Assembly (NCBI GenBank): GCA_903928965.1
Contig: CAIYSZ010000017.1
Span: forward strand, 1 to 64,000
Length of the DNA: 64,000 nt
Direction: 5' to 3'
From: an uncultured Pseudomonadota bacterium
Lineage (GTDB): Bacteria; Pseudomonadota; Gammaproteobacteria; Methylococcales; Methylomonadaceae
Below, one piece after another: positions 9,491 through 52,332 of this stretch. Positions within the stretch are counted from its first letter, which is position 1. Each line of letters starts with the position of its first letter. Position numbers and translations under genes: made by a program. The notes below the pieces were generated by a model. That model ran no database searches. It was not told the DNA's origin and saw only the letters and a program-made list of their open reading frames with translations.

Positions 9491-10577
9491 AACGGACGCC
9501 GCCTACATGGCGCGGGCCTTGCAAGTGGCGCGCAACGCCTTGTACACCGCCGACCCCAACCCGGCCGTCGGCTGCGTGCTGGTAAAACATGGCCGCATCA
9601 TCGCCGAAGGCTGGACCCAACCGCCAGGCCAAGCGCATGCTGAAATCCACGCCTTGCGCCAAACCGAACTTGCCGCCGGGGCCACCGCCTACGTCACCCT
9701 TGAGCCCTGTAGCCACCACGGCCGTACTGGCCCCTGCTGTGACGCGCTAATCGCCGCCGGCGTGACGCGGGTGGTCGCCGCCATCGAAGACCCCAATCCC
9801 TTGGTTTCCGGCCAGGGCTTGAGAAAACTGAAAGCCGCCGGCGTGGACATTGACACCGGCGTCATGGCGGCGGAAGCGGCGGCGCTCAACCGCGGCTTTC
9901 TAAAACGCATGACCCAAGGCCTGCCGTGGATCACCGGCAAACTGGCCGCCAGCCTAGACGGACGCACCGCGCTCGCCTCCGGCGAAAGCCGCTGGATCAC
10001 TTCCGAGGCCGCCCGCGCCGACGTACACCGCCACCGCGCCGCCAGCAGCGCCGTGCTGACCGGCGTCGGCACCGTATTGCAAGACGATCCGCGGCTGGAC
10101 GCCCGCGTTGATTTTCCGGCGGCGCAACCGATCAAAGTGGTACTGGACTCACAACTGCGCACCCCGCCCAACGCCAAACTCCTGGAAAACGGCGGCCAGG
10201 TTTGGCTGCTCACCTGTAGCGCGGATTTTGAAAAAATTCGCGAACTTAAGGCTTACGGATTTAAAATACACACTATCGAATCCATCGACGGCAAGCCGGA
10301 TTTAAACGCAGCCTGCCGTTTTTTGGCCGGCCTCGGCGTCAACAACCTCTGGGTGGAAGCCGGCGCGGAATTAAACGGCGCGTTTTTACGCAGCGGATTG
10401 GTAGACGAATGGCTAATCTATATGGCCCCCTGCATCCTCGGCGACCGGGGGCGCGGCATGTTCCAACTACCCGAACTCAATACCATGCACGATAAAATTG
10501 TCTTAAGCTTAATCGATTGCCAACCGCTAGGCCCTGATTTAAAACTCATTTATACCCAACAGCCAAACAACCGATAA
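9480..10577 (+). CDS. ribD: Bifunctional riboflavin deaminase/reductase RibD
   Basis: [32 protein letters not shown] deaminase motifs plus C-terminal reductase domain. Confidence 0.96.
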
Positions 10578-10591
10578 CAAGAGCGCACAAA

Positions 10592-11263
10592 ATGTTTACA
10601 GGCATCATAGCGGCCGTCGGCCGCATTCAAGCCGTCAATGAACGCGGCGGCGACCGCCGCTTAGTGATCCGCGCCGGCAAACTGCCGCTGGCTGGCACAG
10701 CGCTCGGCGACAGCATCGCCGTCAACGGCGTCTGTTTAACCGCGGTCGAACTCAGCGCCGACAGCTTCAGCGCCGACGTTTCCAATGAAACCCTATCCCG
10801 CAGCACGCTCATCCAGGCCAAGGTCGGCGACCCGGTCAACCTGGAACTGGCGCTGACCCCGGCCAGCCGGTTGGGCGGACACATCGTCAGCGGCCATGTC
10901 GACGGCATAGGCCGCATACTCGACAAAAAAGCCGACGGCCGCTCGATTCGCTTTAACTTCCAAGCGCCAGACGCCTTGGCCAAATACATCGCCGAAAAAG
11001 GCTCCATCTGCATCGACGGCATCAGTCTCACCGTCAACACGGTGGACGGCGCCCGCTTCTCGGTCAACATCGTGCCGCATACCTTGGCCGAAACCACCCT
11101 CGGCAACGCCGAAACCGGCCAGGCCGTCAACCTGGAAGTAGATTTATTGTCCCGCTATTTGGAGCGCCTGCTGCAAGGCGACGCGGCGGCGCAACCCTCA
11201 AGCGGCATCAGCGAAGCGCTCTTAAAAAGCAGTGGATTCATCCCCGACGGATATATTTCATGA
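10592..11263 (+). CDS. ribE: Riboflavin synthase alpha chain
   Basis: MFTGIIAAVGRI; duplicated lumazine-binding domains; GHIVSGHVDG. Confidence 0.95.
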   Translation: MFTGIIAAVGRIQAVNERGGDRRLVIRAGKLPLAGTALGDSIAVNGVCLTAVELSADSFSADVSNETLSRSTLIQAKVGDPVNLELALTPASRLGGHIVSGHVDGIGRILDKKADGRSIRFNFQAPDALAKYIAEKGSICIDGISLTVNTVDGARFSVNIVPHTLAETTLGNAETGQAVNLEVDLLSRYLERLLQGDAAAQPSSGISEALLKSSGFIPDGYIS

Positions 11264-12384
11264 ACAGCATAGAAGAAATCATCGACGACCTACGGCAAGG
11301 CAAAATGGTCATCATGGTCGACAACGAAGACCGGGAAAACGAAGGCGATCTGGTCATGGCCGCCGCCTTCGTGCGCCCGGAAGACGTCAACTTCATGGCC
11401 AAATACGGACGCGGACTCATTTGCCTGACCCTGACCCGCGAACGCTGCCAACAACTGCGCCTGCCGCTGATGGTCAGCGATAACCAGACCCCGTACACCA
11501 CCAATTTCACCGTCTCCATCGAGGCCGCCTCCGGCGTCACCACCGGCATCTCCGCCGCCGACCGCGCCCTGACCATACAACGCGCCGTAGCCCGCGACGC
11601 CCAGCCCAGCGACCTGATGCAGCCCGGACACATTTTTCCTTTAATGGCGCAGCCCGGCGGCGTGCTGAACCGGGCCGGCCATACCGAAGCCGGCTGCGAT
11701 CTGGCGCGGCTGGCCGGGGTGGAACCGGCGGCGGTGATCGTGGAAATTCTCAACGACGACGGCAGCATGGCGCGCCGCCCGGACCTAGAGATATTCGCCG
11801 CCCGGCACCAATTGAAAATTGGGGCCATCTCCGACCTGATCAATTACCGGATTCGCCACGAAAACACGCTGGAACGCATTAGCCGTTGCGCTTATCCCAC
11901 TGAATTTGGCGAATTCACGCTTTACGCCTACCAAGACCGCAACGACGACAACGTGCATCTGGCCCTGGTCATGGGCAACGTCGCCGACGGCGAACCGGTG
12001 CTGACGCGGGTGCATGCGCGCAATTTAATCGACGATACGCTATTCTCCAAGCGCAGCGATTGCAACATGCCGGTGCGCGAAGCGCTGAAAAGAATCGCTG
12101 AGGCCGGCCGCGGCGTGCTGGTCCTGATCCGCGGCAACGAAAACAACAAAAACCTGGTGGAACTGATCCACGGCTATGAAATGCAAGACCACGGCCTGAA
12201 AACCGGATTGACCAGCGACATTCCGGACTGGCGCACCACCGGGGCCGGCTCGCGCATCCTATCCGACCTAGGCGTGCACCGCCTCAAGGTGCTGGGCGCG
12301 CAAAAAAAATACTTCGGCCTGTCCGGATTCGACCTGGAAATCGTCGAACACGTCGGCCCGGAATCCGCCGCCGGCGGATCATGA
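11260..12384 (+). CDS. ribBA: 3,4-dihydroxy-2-butanone-4-phosphate synthase fused to a degenerate GTP cyclohydrolase II-like domain (RibBX-like)
   Basis: DNEDRENEGDL, GHTEAGCDLARLAG in RibB domain; RibA-like domain has RVHARNLIDDTLFSKRSDCNM where canonical RibA has the Zn-binding Cys motif. Confidence 0.9.
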   Translation: MNSIEEIIDDLRQGKMVIMVDNEDRENEGDLVMAAAFVRPEDVNFMAKYGRGLICLTLTRERCQQLRLPLMVSDNQTPYTTNFTVSIEAASGVTTGISAADRALTIQRAVARDAQPSDLMQPGHIFPLMAQPGGVLNRAGHTEAGCDLARLAGVEPAAVIVEILNDDGSMARRPDLEIFAARHQLKIGAISDLINYRIRHENTLERISRCAYPTEFGEFTLYAYQDRNDDNVHLALVMGNVADGEPVLTRVHARNLIDDTLFSKRSDCNMPVREALKRIAEAGRGVLVLIRGNENNKNLVELIHGYEMQDHGLKTGLTSDIPDWRTTGAGSRILSDLGVHRLKVLGAQKKYFGLSGFDLEIVEHVGPESAAGGS

Positions 12385-21463: not shown

Positions 21464-23695
21464 ATGGTTAAGCGCCTAGCCGCCAGACAAGCCCACCCAA
21501 TCACCTTAGACGTGCCAAACGATCTATTAAAAACCGCGCTAGCACACCACCAAGCCGGGCGGTTGCCCGAAGCCGAGGCGGTTTACCGGCAAATTCTAGA
21601 CGCCCATCCGGATTCGGCCGACGCCTGGCATTGGCTGGGAGTCATCGGCCAACAAACCGGCCAGCCGGAACAGGCCGTAAAGCTGATCAGCCGGGCGCTC
21701 AGCCTGCGCCCCAATTACGCCGAAGCCCATTACAACCTGGGTTTCGCCTACCAAACCGGCCGGCAATGGGACAAAGCCCTGCACTGCTTTCAACAGGCCA
21801 TTTTGCTCAAACCGGATTTCGCCGAGGCCTATTGCAGCCTGGCCAACACCCTCAAGGCGCTTGGCCGGCTGGAAGAAGCGGCGCTGCGCTATCGCCAGGC
21901 GATCAGTTTTAAACTTTCCTACACCGACGCCCACAATAACCTAGGCAATACCCTGCGCCTATTGGGCCAATACGACGAAGCCCTAGCCTGTTTCCGCAAC
22001 GCACTGCATTTCAAGCCAGACGCCGTGGATAGCTTAAACAACATGGGCGTGACGCTACAAGAACAAAAACACTATCAGGCCGCCGGCGAATATTTTATCC
22101 GCGTACTGCAAATCAAACCCGACCATACCCAAGCGCACAATAATCTTGGCGGGGTTTTGCAAGCGCTGGGACGCATAGACGAAGCCATCGCCAGCTTTGA
22201 ACGCGCGCTCGCCATCGACCCAGGGCTTGCCGGAGCGCACAACAATCTTGGCCTGCTGTACCGTAAGCGCGGCAAGCAAGCCGAAGCGCTCAAGCATTTT
22301 CAACAGGCGCTGGCAATAAACCCCGAATTCGCCGAGGCATCCTACAATTACCATGACGTGCAATTAAACTGCTGTTATTGGGAAAATTACGACCGGCACG
22401 TACAACACATCAATCAAGCCGTGCATACCGGACTGGGGCGTTATTTGCCTTTCGCCTTTCTGGCGGTCGCCAAATCGCCGGCGCACGCCTTGACCTGCGC
22501 CAGGCTTTACGCCGCCGAATTCTATCCGCCCGCCAAAATACCCTTGTGGAACGGAACCATTTATCAACACCCGCGCATCCGGGTTGCTTATTTATCCGCG
22601 GATTATCACAATCACGCCACGGCCTATTTAATGGCGGGCTTGTTTGAAAAACACGACCGCTCCCGTTTTGAAATAACCGCGGTTTCCTTCGGCCCGCCAA
22701 GCGAGGGCGACATGCGTCAACGCTTGCTGCAAGCCTTTGAACGGTTTGCGGACGTGCGCGATTTCAGCGACCATCAAGTCGCCATGCTGCTCCGGGAATG
22801 GGAAATCGATATCGCCGTTGATCTAAAGGGTTACACCACCGAAGGCCGGCCCGGTATTTTGGCTTACCGGCCAGCGCCGATTCAAATCAATTACTTGGGC
22901 TATCCCGGCAGCATGGGCTGCGATTACCTGGACTACATCATTGCCGACCGCTACGTGCTGCCGGATAGTGATCGCCCGTTTTACACGGAAAAAGTGATCC
23001 TAATGCCCGATACCTATCAGGTCAACGACGATCAACGGCGCATCGCCGAGCATACGCCAAGCCGCGGCGAAATGAATTTGCCGGAAACCGGCTTTATATT
23101 TTCTTGTTTTAACAATAACTATAAAATCAACCCGCCGCTATTCGATGTCTGGATGCGCTTGCTGCGCCAAACCGACGGCAGCGTGCTGTGGTTGTTCCAA
23201 AACAATCCCCTGGTAGCCGCCAATCTGCGCCAGGAAGCGCAAAACCGCGGCGTCGATCCGCGGCGTTTGATATTTGCGCCGGCGGTAGTATTGGACCGGC
23301 ACTTAGCGCGGATTCAACTAGCGGACCTGTTTCTCGACACCTTGCCTTACAACGCCCACACCACCGCCAGCGACGCCCTATGGGCCGGGTTGCCGGTCCT
23401 GACCTGCGTGGGCGAATCCTTCCCCGGACGCGTGGCCGCCAGCTTGTTGCGGGCCATTGATCTGCCGGAATTGATCACCGAAAATCTAGCCGATTATGAA
23501 GCGCTGGCGCTGCAATTGGCGACACAACCGGAAAGGTATCGGCAAATCCGCGAAAAACTGGCGCAAAACCGGCTGCAAACTCCGCTATTCGATACAGACC
23601 GCTTCCGCCGCCATCTTGAATCCGCATACCAAAGCATTTACCAACGCCAACAACAAGGCCTGCCGCCCGAGGATTTTGCCGTGCCGGCGGTTTAA
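21464..23695 (+). CDS. TPR-repeat O-GlcNAc-transferase-like (SPINDLY-family) glycosyltransferase
   Basis: Multiple TPRs; C-terminal RIRVAYLSADYHNHATAYLM, INYLGYPGSMGCDYLDYIIADR, FLDTLPYNAHTTASDALWAGLPVLT. Confidence 0.88.
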   Translation: MVKRLAARQAHPITLDVPNDLLKTALAHHQAGRLPEAEAVYRQILDAHPDSADAWHWLGVIGQQTGQPEQAVKLISRALSLRPNYAEAHYNLGFAYQTGRQWDKALHCFQQAILLKPDFAEAYCSLANTLKALGRLEEAALRYRQAISFKLSYTDAHNNLGNTLRLLGQYDEALACFRNALHFKPDAVDSLNNMGVTLQEQKHYQAAGEYFIRVLQIKPDHTQAHNNLGGVLQALGRIDEAIASFERALAIDPGLAGAHNNLGLLYRKRGKQAEALKHFQQALAINPEFAEASYNYHDVQLNCCYWENYDRHVQHINQAVHTGLGRYLPFAFLAVAKSPAHALTCARLYAAEFYPPAKIPLWNGTIYQHPRIRVAYLSADYHNHATAYLMAGLFEKHDRSRFEITAVSFGPPSEGDMRQRLLQAFERFADVRDFSDHQVAMLLREWEIDIAVDLKGYTTEGRPGILAYRPAPIQINYLGYPGSMGCDYLDYIIADRYVLPDSDRPFYTEKVILMPDTYQVNDDQRRIAEHTPSRGEMNLPETGFIFSCFNNNYKINPPLFDVWMRLLRQTDGSVLWLFQNNPLVAANLRQEAQNRGVDPRRLIFAPAVVLDRHLARIQLADLFLDTLPYNAHTTASDALWAGLPVLTCVGESFPGRVAASLLRAIDLPELITENLADYEALALQLATQPERYRQIREKLAQNRLQTPLFDTDRFRRHLESAYQSIYQRQQQGLPPEDFAVPAV

Positions 23696-44281: not shown

Positions 44282-44527
44282 GGGAACAGGCGCAAAGTTA
44301 ATTGTAAATTTTAACACCTACCCGCTAGCCCGGCTAGCCGCCATACGTCTCAAGCTATATATTTTACCCTGCTGTTATAATTGGCAATCAAGAATGTCTG
44401 CCCGCCAAAACCTCAAGTGATGGGTGGATTTAGGCTTGTCCCTATTAAATTTTACGTTTTCTTGATACTGACATGCGGAGCCCGAAAAGTCTATAATCCC
44501 CCCACCTTAGACGCAGGACCGCCCGGC

Positions 44528-46015
44528 ATGCCGCATATATTCATCTCACACACCACACTGGACGACGCTTTCGTGCGCGCACTGCAACAGCATCTAAACC
44601 AACGTCAAATCAACGCCTGGATAGACTCGCGCGAACTGCGCGGCGGCGATGCGCTAGAGCCCGAAATACTGCAAGCCATAGACCAAGCGGCGGCCTTGAT
44701 TGCCGTTGTCAGCGTAAACAGCCTGCAATCGGCATGGCTAGGCAAGGAAACCGAATACGCTATACAACAAGACAAAAAAGTCATCCCCCTACTCCTGGAC
44801 GGCTGCAAACTCGGCGTGCTGCGCTATCTATTCCCGCGGGAACCGGTCACCATTTCGGTCTCCAGCCAACCCGGCGGCCTCGACGAAACCCTGCCGCGCA
44901 TACTAAGCGCCCTGGGCCACGCCCTGCCCGCCGACCCCAAACCCGCTCCGCAACCTGAATTACCAGCGCTGGCCGAACTAACCCTGGAACTCAGCCCGCT
45001 TGGCCTGGAAACACTGGAAAACCACAAAATCCGCGCCCGCGCCAAGGCCAAGCTATACTACGACCCCGCCGATCCCCGCCAAGAGCGGGTCAACTGCCGT
45101 GAAAGCTGGCTCTTCACCGCCCCGCTCGGCCCCATCGAAACCGAGGCCCTGCGCTGGTATCTGGAAACCTACGCCGTCTGGCCCGGCGATGTTGACCGCC
45201 GGCGCGCCGACCGCATCGCCGCCGATTTAAAAACCTGGGGCGCGCAACTCTACGCCGCCGCCATGCCAGCCAATAAAATTGGCGACGCGCTATCCGCCTG
45301 GCGCATGGCCGGCGGCGCTGAACGCCGCTTTTCTGTCTATTTAGACCTCGGCGATTTAGCCCTACCAAGCCCGGAAGAAGCCCGCCAAGAGGCGCAAACC
45401 GCCGCCACCCAACTGCTAGGCCTGCCGTGGGAACTGCTGCACGACGGCCAACATTATCTGTTTCAAGGCGCAAGCCCGGTCCGCGTCCGCCGCCGCCTGC
45501 CCAACACCCATAACCTGCCCGCCCCGCCCAGCGCGCTGCCTATCCGCGTGCTGCTGGTCACCGCCCGCCCGGAAGACAAAACCTGCGCCTATATAGACCA
45601 CCGCGCCAGCGCCCTGCCCTTGCAACAAGCGCTAGCCGCCCTGGGCGAGCGCGCCGAACTGCATAGCCTGCAACCGCCTACCCTGCAAGCCCTGACCCAG
45701 GAACTGGCGCGCGCGGAAGCCGTTAAGCAACCTTATCACATAGTGCATTTTGACGGCCACGGCGTCTACAACCCCCATCTCGGCCTCGGCGGCTTATGCT
45801 TTGAACTGGAAGCGGACGCTGAACAACTGGGCAAACGCCGCCCGCGCACCGTATACAGCGATGAACTGGGCGAATTATTGCATCAACACCGCATCCCGCT
45901 GGTGTTTCTGGAAGCTTGCCAAACCGCGCAAGCCGACCAAGCCAACGAATCGCTAGCCGTGGGCCTGCTGCGGCAAGGCGTGGCCTTACGCCCGCAACCC
46001 GCTTTCGCTGCATAG
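44528..46015 (+). CDS. TIR-CHAT protein, truncated C-terminally; 5' part of a disrupted TIR-CHAT-STAND-TPR gene
   Basis: TIR: MPHIFISHTTLDDAFVRALQQHL...SAWLGKETEYAI; CHAT dyad IVHFDGHGVY and VFLEACQTAQA; ends abruptly after ESLAVGLLRQGVA. Confidence 0.75.
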   Translation: MPHIFISHTTLDDAFVRALQQHLNQRQINAWIDSRELRGGDALEPEILQAIDQAAALIAVVSVNSLQSAWLGKETEYAIQQDKKVIPLLLDGCKLGVLRYLFPREPVTISVSSQPGGLDETLPRILSALGHALPADPKPAPQPELPALAELTLELSPLGLETLENHKIRARAKAKLYYDPADPRQERVNCRESWLFTAPLGPIETEALRWYLETYAVWPGDVDRRRADRIAADLKTWGAQLYAAAMPANKIGDALSAWRMAGGAERRFSVYLDLGDLALPSPEEARQEAQTAATQLLGLPWELLHDGQHYLFQGASPVRVRRRLPNTHNLPAPPSALPIRVLLVTARPEDKTCAYIDHRASALPLQQALAALGERAELHSLQPPTLQALTQELARAEAVKQPYHIVHFDGHGVYNPHLGLGGLCFELEADAEQLGKRRPRTVYSDELGELLHQHRIPLVFLEACQTAQADQANESLAVGLLRQGVALRPQPAFAA

Positions 46016-46103
46016 CCTCACGCCAAACGACGCGGTCAAACTGCTGGAGCGCAGCCTGGCGCAAACTGAATCCGCGCCAGCCCGCCAAGCGCAAAGACCG
46101 GCC

Positions 46104-48056
46104 ATGGAAGCCATCTGCCGCACCGTCAACTACCACGCCCGCAGCCTGGCCCTGCTCGGCCCGCTGCTGCAAACCGCCAGCGCGGAATTAACCCAAACCG
46201 AACTGGCGCGCATGATGGCGCAATTGGAACGTCAATACCCAGGCGAGCGTGAACTGTCGCTCTACGCCAGCCTGGAGCTGTCCTTAAACCGCCTGTCGCC
46301 GCAAATCCGCAAACAAATCAACATCCTGGGCCTGTTTCACGGCGGCGTGAATTTGAATGTATTACGCCATATGACCGGCTGGAGCGAGGAATACATCGCA
46401 GAACTGGCCCGACAACTAATCGCCACCGGCTTGGCTACCCAGGAAGCCTATAATCACCTCAGCCTCAACCCAGCTCTCTGCCCCTATCTGCGCGGCAAAA
46501 TAACCGCCGCCGAATATGCCGAGCTGCAAGCCCGCTGGCTCTCTTGCATGCTGGATTATGTCTGGTATTTGCACGAACAACAACATCAAAATACCGGAAT
46601 GGCGGCAAGCTTGACCCTATTGGAGCAAGCCAATCTATTCGCCTTGCTGGACTGCGCCCAAGCCCAATACCAGCCGGAAATGGTGATGGAATTGCTGAAT
46701 AGTTTATATAGTCTGTTCAAACCTCTAGGCAAACCGCGATTACTGCAAAAAATCACAACCGCTCAACAAACCTTGGCCCCGCGGCTCAAGCAATGGAGCC
46801 ACGCCGCCTTTAGCTTGCAGTTCGATCAAATTCAGCAACAATGTGACGCCGGGCAATTGCTCCTAGCCTATAAAAATGCCGCCGCCTTACTGCAACAATG
46901 TGAAACGGCAGGCATAGCCGCATATGTAAATGCCGATTATGATTATGCGTCGATACTATGGCTAATAAGCCGGATTCTAAATTGGGCGGGACAAGCGTTA
47001 AGTTCGCTGGCCTTGCTGCACCAAGCGCAACTTGGTTTTCAGGCATTAGCGGAAAATAACAAAGCGGCGCAACGCATGCTCACGGTTTGCCTAACCGAAC
47101 AAGCTGATTGTTTGACAAATTTAGGGCAACTCGAGCCAGCCAGCAAACTTTACCAACAGGCTATTGCATTATCCGAACAAAGAGACTCGCTACGCGATGT
47201 TGTGGCGGGTAAATTTCAACTTTGCACTGTGCTAATGCTTCAAAACAAATATTCATTGGCGCTGGAAGCCTATAACCAAGCCAAGGATATTTTCAGCGGA
47301 TTGCAAGAACCAAAGATGGTCGCTGCCGCCTGGCATCAAATCGGCATGCTTTACCAAGTAACCGGCCAAGCCGACCTTGCCGAAGACGCCTACCGTCAAT
47401 CGCTGGAAATTACAGTACAACAAAATGATTTAAGCGGCCAAGCCTCATCTCTTAATCAACTGGGTTTATTATACAAAGATAATCGCCAAAACCCGGAACC
47501 AGCCGCCGTTTATCTGCAACGAGCAGCCGATATTTATCAACAACAGGAAGATATAGCCGGAGAAGGCCGCGCACGAAGCAATTTAGCACTGCCGTTAATC
47601 CAACTGGAACGCTACCCGGAAGCGCGCGCGGAACTTAGTCGCGCCATAAGCTGCAAAGCCCAATTCGGCCACGCCAGCGAATCCTGGAAGACTTGGGATA
47701 TTCTTGCCGACCTGGAAACCGCCGCCGGTAATGCAGCCGCCGCCGCGCAAGCCCGCGCCCAAGCCCGCGCCAGCTATCTGGCCTACCGCCGCGACGGCGG
47801 CGAAAATCATGAAATCTCCGGTCAAATTATCCAAAAGCTTCAACCAATTATAAAAGAACCAGGCCCCTCCGCCGCGCTCGGCCAATTACCAGAATGGCTA
47901 GATGAGCCTAAATTTGCCGAATTGAAAACCTATCTGCAAGCCCTGCGCGCCATCCTCCAAGGCAGCCGCGACCCCGCCTTGGCCGACCATCAGGATTTAG
48001 ATTATGACGAAGCCGTGGAAATCCAACTGCTGCTGGAATCCCTGACCGCGGACTAA
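46104..48056 (+). CDS. TPR-rich 3' part of the disrupted TIR-CHAT-STAND-TPR gene
   Basis: AICRTVNYHARSLALLGPLL...LYASLELSLNRLSPQIRKQINILGLFHGGVNLNVLRHMTGW then TPRs; the frame extends upstream without stop to about 45981 (WPYARNPLSLHSLTPNDAVKLLERSL). Confidence 0.7.
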   Translation: MEAICRTVNYHARSLALLGPLLQTASAELTQTELARMMAQLERQYPGERELSLYASLELSLNRLSPQIRKQINILGLFHGGVNLNVLRHMTGWSEEYIAELARQLIATGLATQEAYNHLSLNPALCPYLRGKITAAEYAELQARWLSCMLDYVWYLHEQQHQNTGMAASLTLLEQANLFALLDCAQAQYQPEMVMELLNSLYSLFKPLGKPRLLQKITTAQQTLAPRLKQWSHAAFSLQFDQIQQQCDAGQLLLAYKNAAALLQQCETAGIAAYVNADYDYASILWLISRILNWAGQALSSLALLHQAQLGFQALAENNKAAQRMLTVCLTEQADCLTNLGQLEPASKLYQQAIALSEQRDSLRDVVAGKFQLCTVLMLQNKYSLALEAYNQAKDIFSGLQEPKMVAAAWHQIGMLYQVTGQADLAEDAYRQSLEITVQQNDLSGQASSLNQLGLLYKDNRQNPEPAAVYLQRAADIYQQQEDIAGEGRARSNLALPLIQLERYPEARAELSRAISCKAQFGHASESWKTWDILADLETAAGNAAAAAQARAQARASYLAYRRDGGENHEISGQIIQKLQPIIKEPGPSAALGQLPEWLDEPKFAELKTYLQALRAILQGSRDPALADHQDLDYDEAVEIQLLLESLTAD

Positions 48057-49505: not shown

Positions 49506-50810
49506 CTAGCATCGATCCAAACCGACACCAGGATCACACAACACCACCCCCTCCCCGACCTCCCGCAACACCGCCTCGCTTATCGTATTCTCCAAATCCA
49601 CCCCCGCCGCTACATCACAAGCGGCGCGCAAATAATTCGGCGTATAACCGAAATAACGCCTTCCGCCGCCGGGCAAATCCTGATATTGCCCCTCCCATAA
49701 CACGTTGGCGCCCCGGCCGAGATTTTGGCGCATGAAATCCTGCTTCATCCGCTCCGCCAAGTCGTGCAACTCGCGGCTGCGGCTTTTTTTTACCTCAACA
49801 GACACCGGATTAGGGAAGCTGGCGGCGGCGGTGCCGGCGCGCGGCGAATAACTGAATATATGCATATGCCCGAAACCCACCCGCTCAATAAACTCAAACC
49901 CGGCGCGCCACTCCGCCTCGGTTTCACCGGGAAAGCCGACGATAATATCGGTGGTAATATTAAAATCGGGCGTACAGGCGCGCAAGGAATCGGCAATGGC
50001 GGCGAATTCCTCGGTTTTACAGCGGCGCGCCATGCGCTTCAACACGCTATCGCAGCCGCTTTGCAGCGGCAAGTGTAAATGCGGCAGCAAGCGCGAATCT
50101 TGAAACAGCTCGATAAACCCATCGCTAAACTCCCACGGTTCCAAGGACCCCAAACGCAAGCGCGGAATATCCGTGTCGCGTAAAATCGCAGTCACCAGCT
50201 TAGTCAAATTACTGTCAATATCCGCGCCGTAACCGCCCAAATGCACCCCGGTAATCACCGCCTCGCGGATGCCTTGTTCCTGCAAGCGGTTAATCTCGTC
50301 CACAATCTCCGCCAGCCCCCGGCTGCGCTCCTCGCCGCGCGCCACCGTGACGATGCAAAAAGTGCAGCGGTAACGGCAACCGTCCTGCACCTTGACAAAC
50401 GCCCGCTGCCGGCCGCGGTGAAACAAAGCCACCGCCCCCGGCTCGGCCGCCATGCTCGGCATGCTGTCCATATTCAACTCGGCCAGGGTTTTCTGCACCA
50501 AACGCGCCTTGTCCCCATTCCCGACGATCAAATCCACCCCCAGCAAACCGGCCGCCTCGGTTTCATTCAAGGTAGCGTAACAACCGCTCAACACCAGCTT
50601 GGCCGCCGGATTATCCCGATGCGTGCGCCGCACCAGCTGCCGCGACTTACGCACCGCATCCTCTGTCACCGCGCAAGAATTCAACACCACCAGCCCGGCC
50701 TCGCGCACATCCTGCGTAATCCCATGCCCAGCCGCCTGAAACCCCTGCGCCCAAGTCTCCAACTCAGCCTCATTCAACCGGCAACCCAGGGTTTTTAAAT
50801 GAATTAACAT
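49506..50810 (-). CDS. mtaB: MtaB-type tRNA methylthiotransferase (radical SAM)
   Basis: LKTLGCRLNEAELE; KVQDGCRYRCTFCIVTVARG; ITGVHLGGYG; LHLPLQSGCDSVLKRMAR. Confidence 0.92.
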   Translation of the reverse strand: MLIHLKTLGCRLNEAELETWAQGFQAAGHGITQDVREAGLVVLNSCAVTEDAVRKSRQLVRRTHRDNPAAKLVLSGCYATLNETEAAGLLGVDLIVGNGDKARLVQKTLAELNMDSMPSMAAEPGAVALFHRGRQRAFVKVQDGCRYRCTFCIVTVARGEERSRGLAEIVDEINRLQEQGIREAVITGVHLGGYGADIDSNLTKLVTAILRDTDIPRLRLGSLEPWEFSDGFIELFQDSRLLPHLHLPLQSGCDSVLKRMARRCKTEEFAAIADSLRACTPDFNITTDIIVGFPGETEAEWRAGFEFIERVGFGHMHIFSYSPRAGTAAASFPNPVSVEVKKSRSRELHDLAERMKQDFMRQNLGRGANVLWEGQYQDLPGGGRRYFGYTPNYLRAACDVAAGVDLENTISEAVLREVGEGVVLCDPGVGLDRC

Positions 50811-50835
50811 ATTAAAATTAAATACAAAAAGCTCA

Positions 50836-52332
<1,497 letters not shown>

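Follow-up and report, generated by a model that had tools for sequence, protein, structure and literature searches.

Bacterial STAND/NLR receptors such as Avs, bNACHT and TIR-NLR proteins (bNACHT25, PMC12169576; Avs5, PMC12931631) share an effector-ATPase-sensor layout. CHAT and TIR effectors both occur in bacterial conflict systems (PMC10907252, PMC7159879) and are carried together by one conflict-system protein, the DGR 2 target of Thiohalocapsa PB-PSB1, whose variable C-terminal region is the target of a diversity-generating retroelement (PMC10907252). The CHAT caspase-like fold is further found in SAVED-CHAT and in TPR-CHAT (Csx29/Craspase), which are activated by cyclic oligonucleotides or gRAMP and which, to our knowledge, possess no STAND ATPase (PMC9729208, PMC10028731). 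An architecture uniting TIR, CHAT, a STAND ATPase and TPRs has no dedicated model in PADLOC or NCBIfam, and no paper naming exactly this combination was found in the literature searched.

The 64,000-nucleotide stretch analysed here (the window), from an uncultured member of the Methylomonadaceae, contains a gene that is very probably a broken derivative of a single-protein receptor family with this architecture and not a working member of it. The layout of its proposed ancestor would be that of the STAND/NLR receptors, whereas the window copy lacks the ATPase; in PADLOC, the TIR-NLR model hits an intact homologue through the TIR domain only (E 0.0076). In contrast to SAVED-CHAT and TPR-CHAT, the window possesses a truncated CHAT domain, and, unlike the Thiohalocapsa protein, its family ends in TPRs. 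The features of the locus are collected in Table 1.

Table 1. Coordinates of the features of the probable broken receptor gene within the window.
Feature	Position	Strand	Description
Sigma-70-like promoter, candidate	44468..44497	+	CTGACA-18-TATAAT; 11/12, consensus matches only; 30 bp upstream of ORF 1 ATG
ORF 1	44528..46015	+	495 aa from ATG; TIR plus C-terminally truncated CHAT
TIR domain	44537..44809	+	PF13676 (TIR_2), E 1.6e-21, residues 4-94
CHAT domain, truncated	45407..45982	+	PF12770, E 1.5e-13, residues 294-485
Second open frame	45957..48056	+	Last part of STAND ATPase module and C-terminal TPRs
Deletion junction	45979..45989	+	..GGCGTGGCC / TTACGCCCGC..; CHAT ..GVA joined to ATPase-end (Y)ARN.., +1 frame change
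Best-scoring TPR pair	47319..47543	+	TPR_12, E 2.8e-12

Homology in ORF 1 extends over 486 residues and breaks off within CHAT, directly after ...LLRQGVA; nine out-of-frame residues (LRPQPAFAA) and a stop follow. The TIR domain is complete and retains Glu74 (44747-44749), in a column that is Glu in 51 of 51 aligned sequences, window included. The CHAT domain is not complete: its dyad is present (His411, 45758-45760; Cys464, 45917-45919), but the elements from strand 5 to strand 6 are gone, and the match covers only positions 33-223 of the 289-position Pfam profile, compared with an end at 268-271 in intact homologues. The sequence-only reading had described this frame as a TIR and a CHAT domain with His and Cys that stops early; the Pfam match bears this out, and the residue strings it quoted are correct. 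Since a near-consensus promoter lies upstream and an AGGA sits 9 nt before the ATG, these signals suggest that the 495-aa fragment of TIR and broken CHAT is probably still produced.

The second frame, shifted by +1 relative to ORF 1, is open from 45957 to 48053, with a stop at 48054-48056. An open frame of its length (699 codons) arose by chance in none of 5,000 random sequences of equal dinucleotide make-up. Although it opens at 45957, homology begins only at ~45987, where the N-terminal sequence ARNPLSLHSL..DAVKLLERSL..TVNYHARSLALLG matches, column by column, the final part of the ATPase module in intact homologues (for example, ARNRIELHQL..DAVKLVERAL..AVHCHARTLALLA). The C-terminal TPR array is present, with 41-46% identity to intact copies. 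Resumption of the gene in another frame as a STAND end followed by TPRs, as had been proposed, was thus confirmed by alignment and Pfam; the proposed opening at 45981 was not. Elsewhere in the window (21560-22309), a TPR-like stretch within a 744-codon open frame is weakly similar to the receptor's TPR tail.

The two translated halves of the window gene were set in one row and aligned to intact homologues. The window aligns cleanly up to ...ESLAVGLLRQGVA, and the residues that come next, (P)YARNPLSLHSLTPNDAVKLLERSL, correspond to ..ARNRIELHQLAQDDAVKLVERAL.. of L065, a homologue from an uncultured member of the Methylococcaceae. Between these points the closest intact copies possess 279 (L065), 286 (L062) and 302 (L066) residues, and 253 alignment columns of more than 90% occupancy are absent from the window. 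From these residue counts, the loss comprises ~280-300 aa or ~0.85-0.9 kb, a length that is not a multiple of three. The gene now lies in two frames with a +1 shift at ~45985; the P-loop is absent from both, and with it the central STAND/NB-ARC ATPase. No repeat of at least 18 nt spans the junction. Third-position G+C runs continuously over it and drops only later in the gene, a pattern shared with L065 and L063; for this reason we rejected a separate origin of the two halves (the TPR half being lower in G+C). A search of the genome's own assembly did not locate the missing ATPase segment, and the idea that it lies on another contig was dropped. No intact allele was found in congeners, where the best matches have at most 37% identity over part of the protein; a conserved neighbouring gene (49506-50870) is itself just 67-72% identical in these genomes.

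Full-length relatives were sought in 311 genomes of the order, yielding five intact homologues in another family, three copies in one genome (G267) and two in a second (G266). Their open frames of 1,492-1,652 aa align end to end with both halves (TIR-CHAT identity 42-56%) and contain Pfam matches to TIR, CHAT, a P-loop ATPase (NB-ARC and related AAA/STAND models) and TPRs. A scan of genome contigs with the window protein alone returned no relatives; an alignment-based scan of GTDB genomes returned 79 loci spanning Gammaproteobacteria, Nitrosomonas, Acidobacteria, Planctomycetes, Cyanobacteria, Chlorobi, Chloroflexi, Verrucomicrobia and others. Architectures were counted in the 60 relatives whose sequence shows where the gene ends. 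In 51 of these, one ORF runs for 1,400 aa or more beyond the start of the match, in the order TIR, CHAT, P-loop STAND and TPR (~1,410-1,600 aa counted from the TIR, P-loop at ~residue 620), and one further relative (L145) is open as far as the contig edge. The other eight are broken by frameshifts or insertions, and in all eight the ATPase is still encoded (tblastn). None of the 60 has separate TIR-CHAT and TPR ORFs in succession with no ATPase. Conservation of such a two-ORF arrangement would have spoken against a deletion; it was looked for and not found, and we rejected conserved gene fission. Full-length proteins occur in uncultured Methylococcaceae (L062/L096, L063/L084, L065/L099, L066/L143), Nitrosomonas oligotropha (L089), Rhabdochromatium marinum (L095) and others. 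The window shares with them the domain order, the catalytic and conserved residues and the TPR tail; they differ from it in being encoded by one ORF with a P-loop (GxGGEGKT), whereas the window is frame-shifted and shorter by ~280-300 aa.

Several relatives carry additional sequence. An imperfect palindromic repeat of ~94 bp (GTAGGCCGGAATAA...TTATTCCGGCCTAC) is present at L063:4717-4815, L066:5210-5308 and L062:7078-7173. Two intact homologues have it in-frame inside the ATPase or linker, and a third has it at the 3' end; it appears to represent a mobile palindromic element that is translated within an immune receptor. In and around L064:5273-5356, several copies of an in-frame repeat, LPSPxAKGAGGEG, occupy the same hotspot past the Walker B region of the ATPase. 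In a Dechloromonas locus (L123, ~9777-11327), the receptor gene is interrupted between CHAT and the ATPase by an element that carries a transposase, has inverted ends (CAGCCTGTCGG..CCGACAGGCTG) and shows an apparent duplication of a CTAG target.

The consequence of the truncation for the CHAT fold was assessed on a model of residues 1 to 600 of the intact homologue L099, folded with 51 sequences (pLDDT 84, pTM 0.85). The best PDB matches identified by Foldseek were SAVED-CHAT (E 1.8e-10), Csx29/TPR-CHAT (E ~1e-7) and separase over the CHAT region; over the TIR region they were TIR proteins. In this model the conserved His and Cys lie just past the third and fourth core strands. The window stops at the equivalent of residue 495, and hence is without the strand at 496-500, the helices at 506-521 and 526-539 and the strands at 542-546, 550-553 and 560-564; in terms of the caspase-like fold, CHAT loses its strands 5 and 6 along with two helices. 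Because C-terminal core strands and helices are removed, the first half falls short of a complete TIR-CHAT effector, and judging by the model it is doubtful that it could be a working one. The truncated window protein itself, folded with 9 sequences, gave a low-confidence model (pLDDT 64) that was left out of the conclusions.

Among 237 genomes of the family, only one other (G212; L042, contig 152) contains a recognisable TIR-CHAT-type copy. This copy has lost its TIR region and possesses two frameshifts, one before and one after the ATPase (one of them at an A6 run), yet it keeps the P-loop (GQGGEGKTALA). Its separate CHAT, ATPase and TPR ORFs were considered as a natural three-gene version and rejected, given that the gene is also 5'-truncated and its breaks resemble ordinary frameshifts. 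A transposase-like remnant lies upstream of this copy, which was broken independently of the window's. As the nearest family member retains the P-loop, the ATPase-less state of the window gene is the derived one. In a tree of the C-terminal TPRs, G212 groups with the window (support 0.97), whereas a tree of CHAT only places the window beside L084 (support 0.86). Given this conflict, nothing here rests on the exact sister; the presence of the ATPase throughout the surrounding clade suffices. The same disagreement leaves a small probability that the window gene was formed by recombination between two paralogues at the junction.

Of the residues shared by at least 95% of intact copies, the two halves retain almost all (94/97 and 72/78), within the range of intact copies, from which we infer that the break is recent. 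Root-to-tip distances rank 41st and 9th of 52, with no clear acceleration. The remaining 3.5 kb contains no second inactivating change, a pattern that selection on two products would also give. The break thus appears young relative to the divergence of the gene and, by extension from the sequences, is probably recent in time. An event of this kind had been put forward by the sequence-only reading, namely a recent, frame-shifting deletion near 45975-45990 in which CHAT lost its end and the ATPase nearly its whole length, including the P-loop; the alignment places it at ~45980-45990. The alignment of both halves with full-length homologues, the 51 single-ORF relatives, the P-loop of G212, the failure to find the segment elsewhere in the genome, the retained residues, the unraised root-to-tip distances and the continuous third-position G+C all agree with it.

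Free-standing TPR genes related to the receptor tail exist in the same family (G163, G181 and genus g22). Those of g22 show dN/dS of ~0.2 (NG86) or 0.3-0.4 (YN00) and are possibly a domesticated receptor tail. In this one genus the free-standing genes (L046:4995-6284, L047:4537-5583, L048:7314-8456 and L019) have a conserved position beside a sensor histidine kinase/response regulator pair. We asked whether the window's TPR half belongs to this TPR-only lineage and rejected the assignment, as the free genes form a separate clade (support 0.999-1.0).

We consider it very probable that the window gene is a genuine pseudogene, left by a recent deletion in a gene for a single-protein STAND immune receptor. 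The main rival, an assembly or consensus artefact, whereby the genome holds an intact or in-frame gene whose middle was dropped or mis-joined by the assembler, is unlikely. The assembly is in draft state, with 116 contigs and 92% completeness, and copies of the gene lie at contig ends in other drafts (G264), so that assembly of this gene can be difficult in genomes with several copies. Here, however, searches of the genome found a single copy and no orphan ATPase piece on another contig, and the junction is interior to an 89-kb contig, with no repeat of 18 nt or more across it. Short-read assemblers seldom delete unique sequence.

The sequence-only reading had also allowed for two half-proteins that are still expressed and functional. 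That ORF 1 (TIR and partial CHAT) and ORF 2 (TPR) are both expressed and act in trans without an ATPase is very unlikely, and we regard as slightly less probable again the proposal that both are translated and act as a two-component, ATPase-free system derived from a STAND receptor, in which a TIR fragment would be the effector and a free TPR protein the sensor. In favour of a split, both frames stay open throughout with their conserved residues retained, and related TPR tails are separate ORFs in other family members, under purifying selection in g22. The g22 genes indicate that such a tail can be kept, not that the window's tail is. Against a functional split stand the absence of such an arrangement from all 60 relatives, the distinct clade of the TPR-only genes, the cut through the CHAT core and the first usable ATG of ORF 2 (46104), which lies 88 nt past the ORF 1 stop with no clear Shine-Dalgarno sequence. 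Programmed or leaky +1 frameshifting within the 59-nt overlap of the two frames (45957-46015) could in principle produce an ATPase-less fusion of TIR, partial CHAT and TPRs. To this we assign almost no probability: inspection by eye revealed no recognised +1 slippery site in the overlap, the product would still be without the CHAT core and the ATPase, and no homologue among the 60 encodes such a fusion.

On the favoured reading of a deletion pseudogene, the ancestor would have been one protein of ~1,450-1,500 aa with N-terminal TIR and CHAT effectors, a central STAND (NB-ARC/AP-ATPase-like) P-loop switch and a TPR sensor. By analogy with STAND/NLR receptors, a trigger, presumably phage-derived, would bind the TPRs and cause ATP-dependent oligomerisation of the ATPase; this would activate the TIR (NAD+-consuming) and CHAT (protease) effectors, and the infected cell would be killed or arrested. 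A single out-of-frame deletion of ~0.85-0.9 kb would then have taken out the last CHAT strands together with the ATPase as far as the residues that precede 'ARN..DAVKL'. The promoter could still drive the 495-aa fragment, and the start of the TPR frame would be lost. Without an ATPase to link sensing with killing, the receptor cannot operate in the way proposed for its ancestor, and loss of function in the window copy is the probable outcome.

As a pseudogene, the window gene carries little weight alone; it does offer a clean snapshot of a single-protein immune receptor being lost. Recognisable copies of its type occur in 2 of the 237 family genomes, both broken and each in a different manner. 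The full-length TIR-CHAT-STAND-TPR family, meanwhile, is widespread over many phyla, with two predicted killing domains per sensor. These properties, together with the lack of a dedicated PADLOC or NCBIfam model, make the intact homologues the better experimental target.
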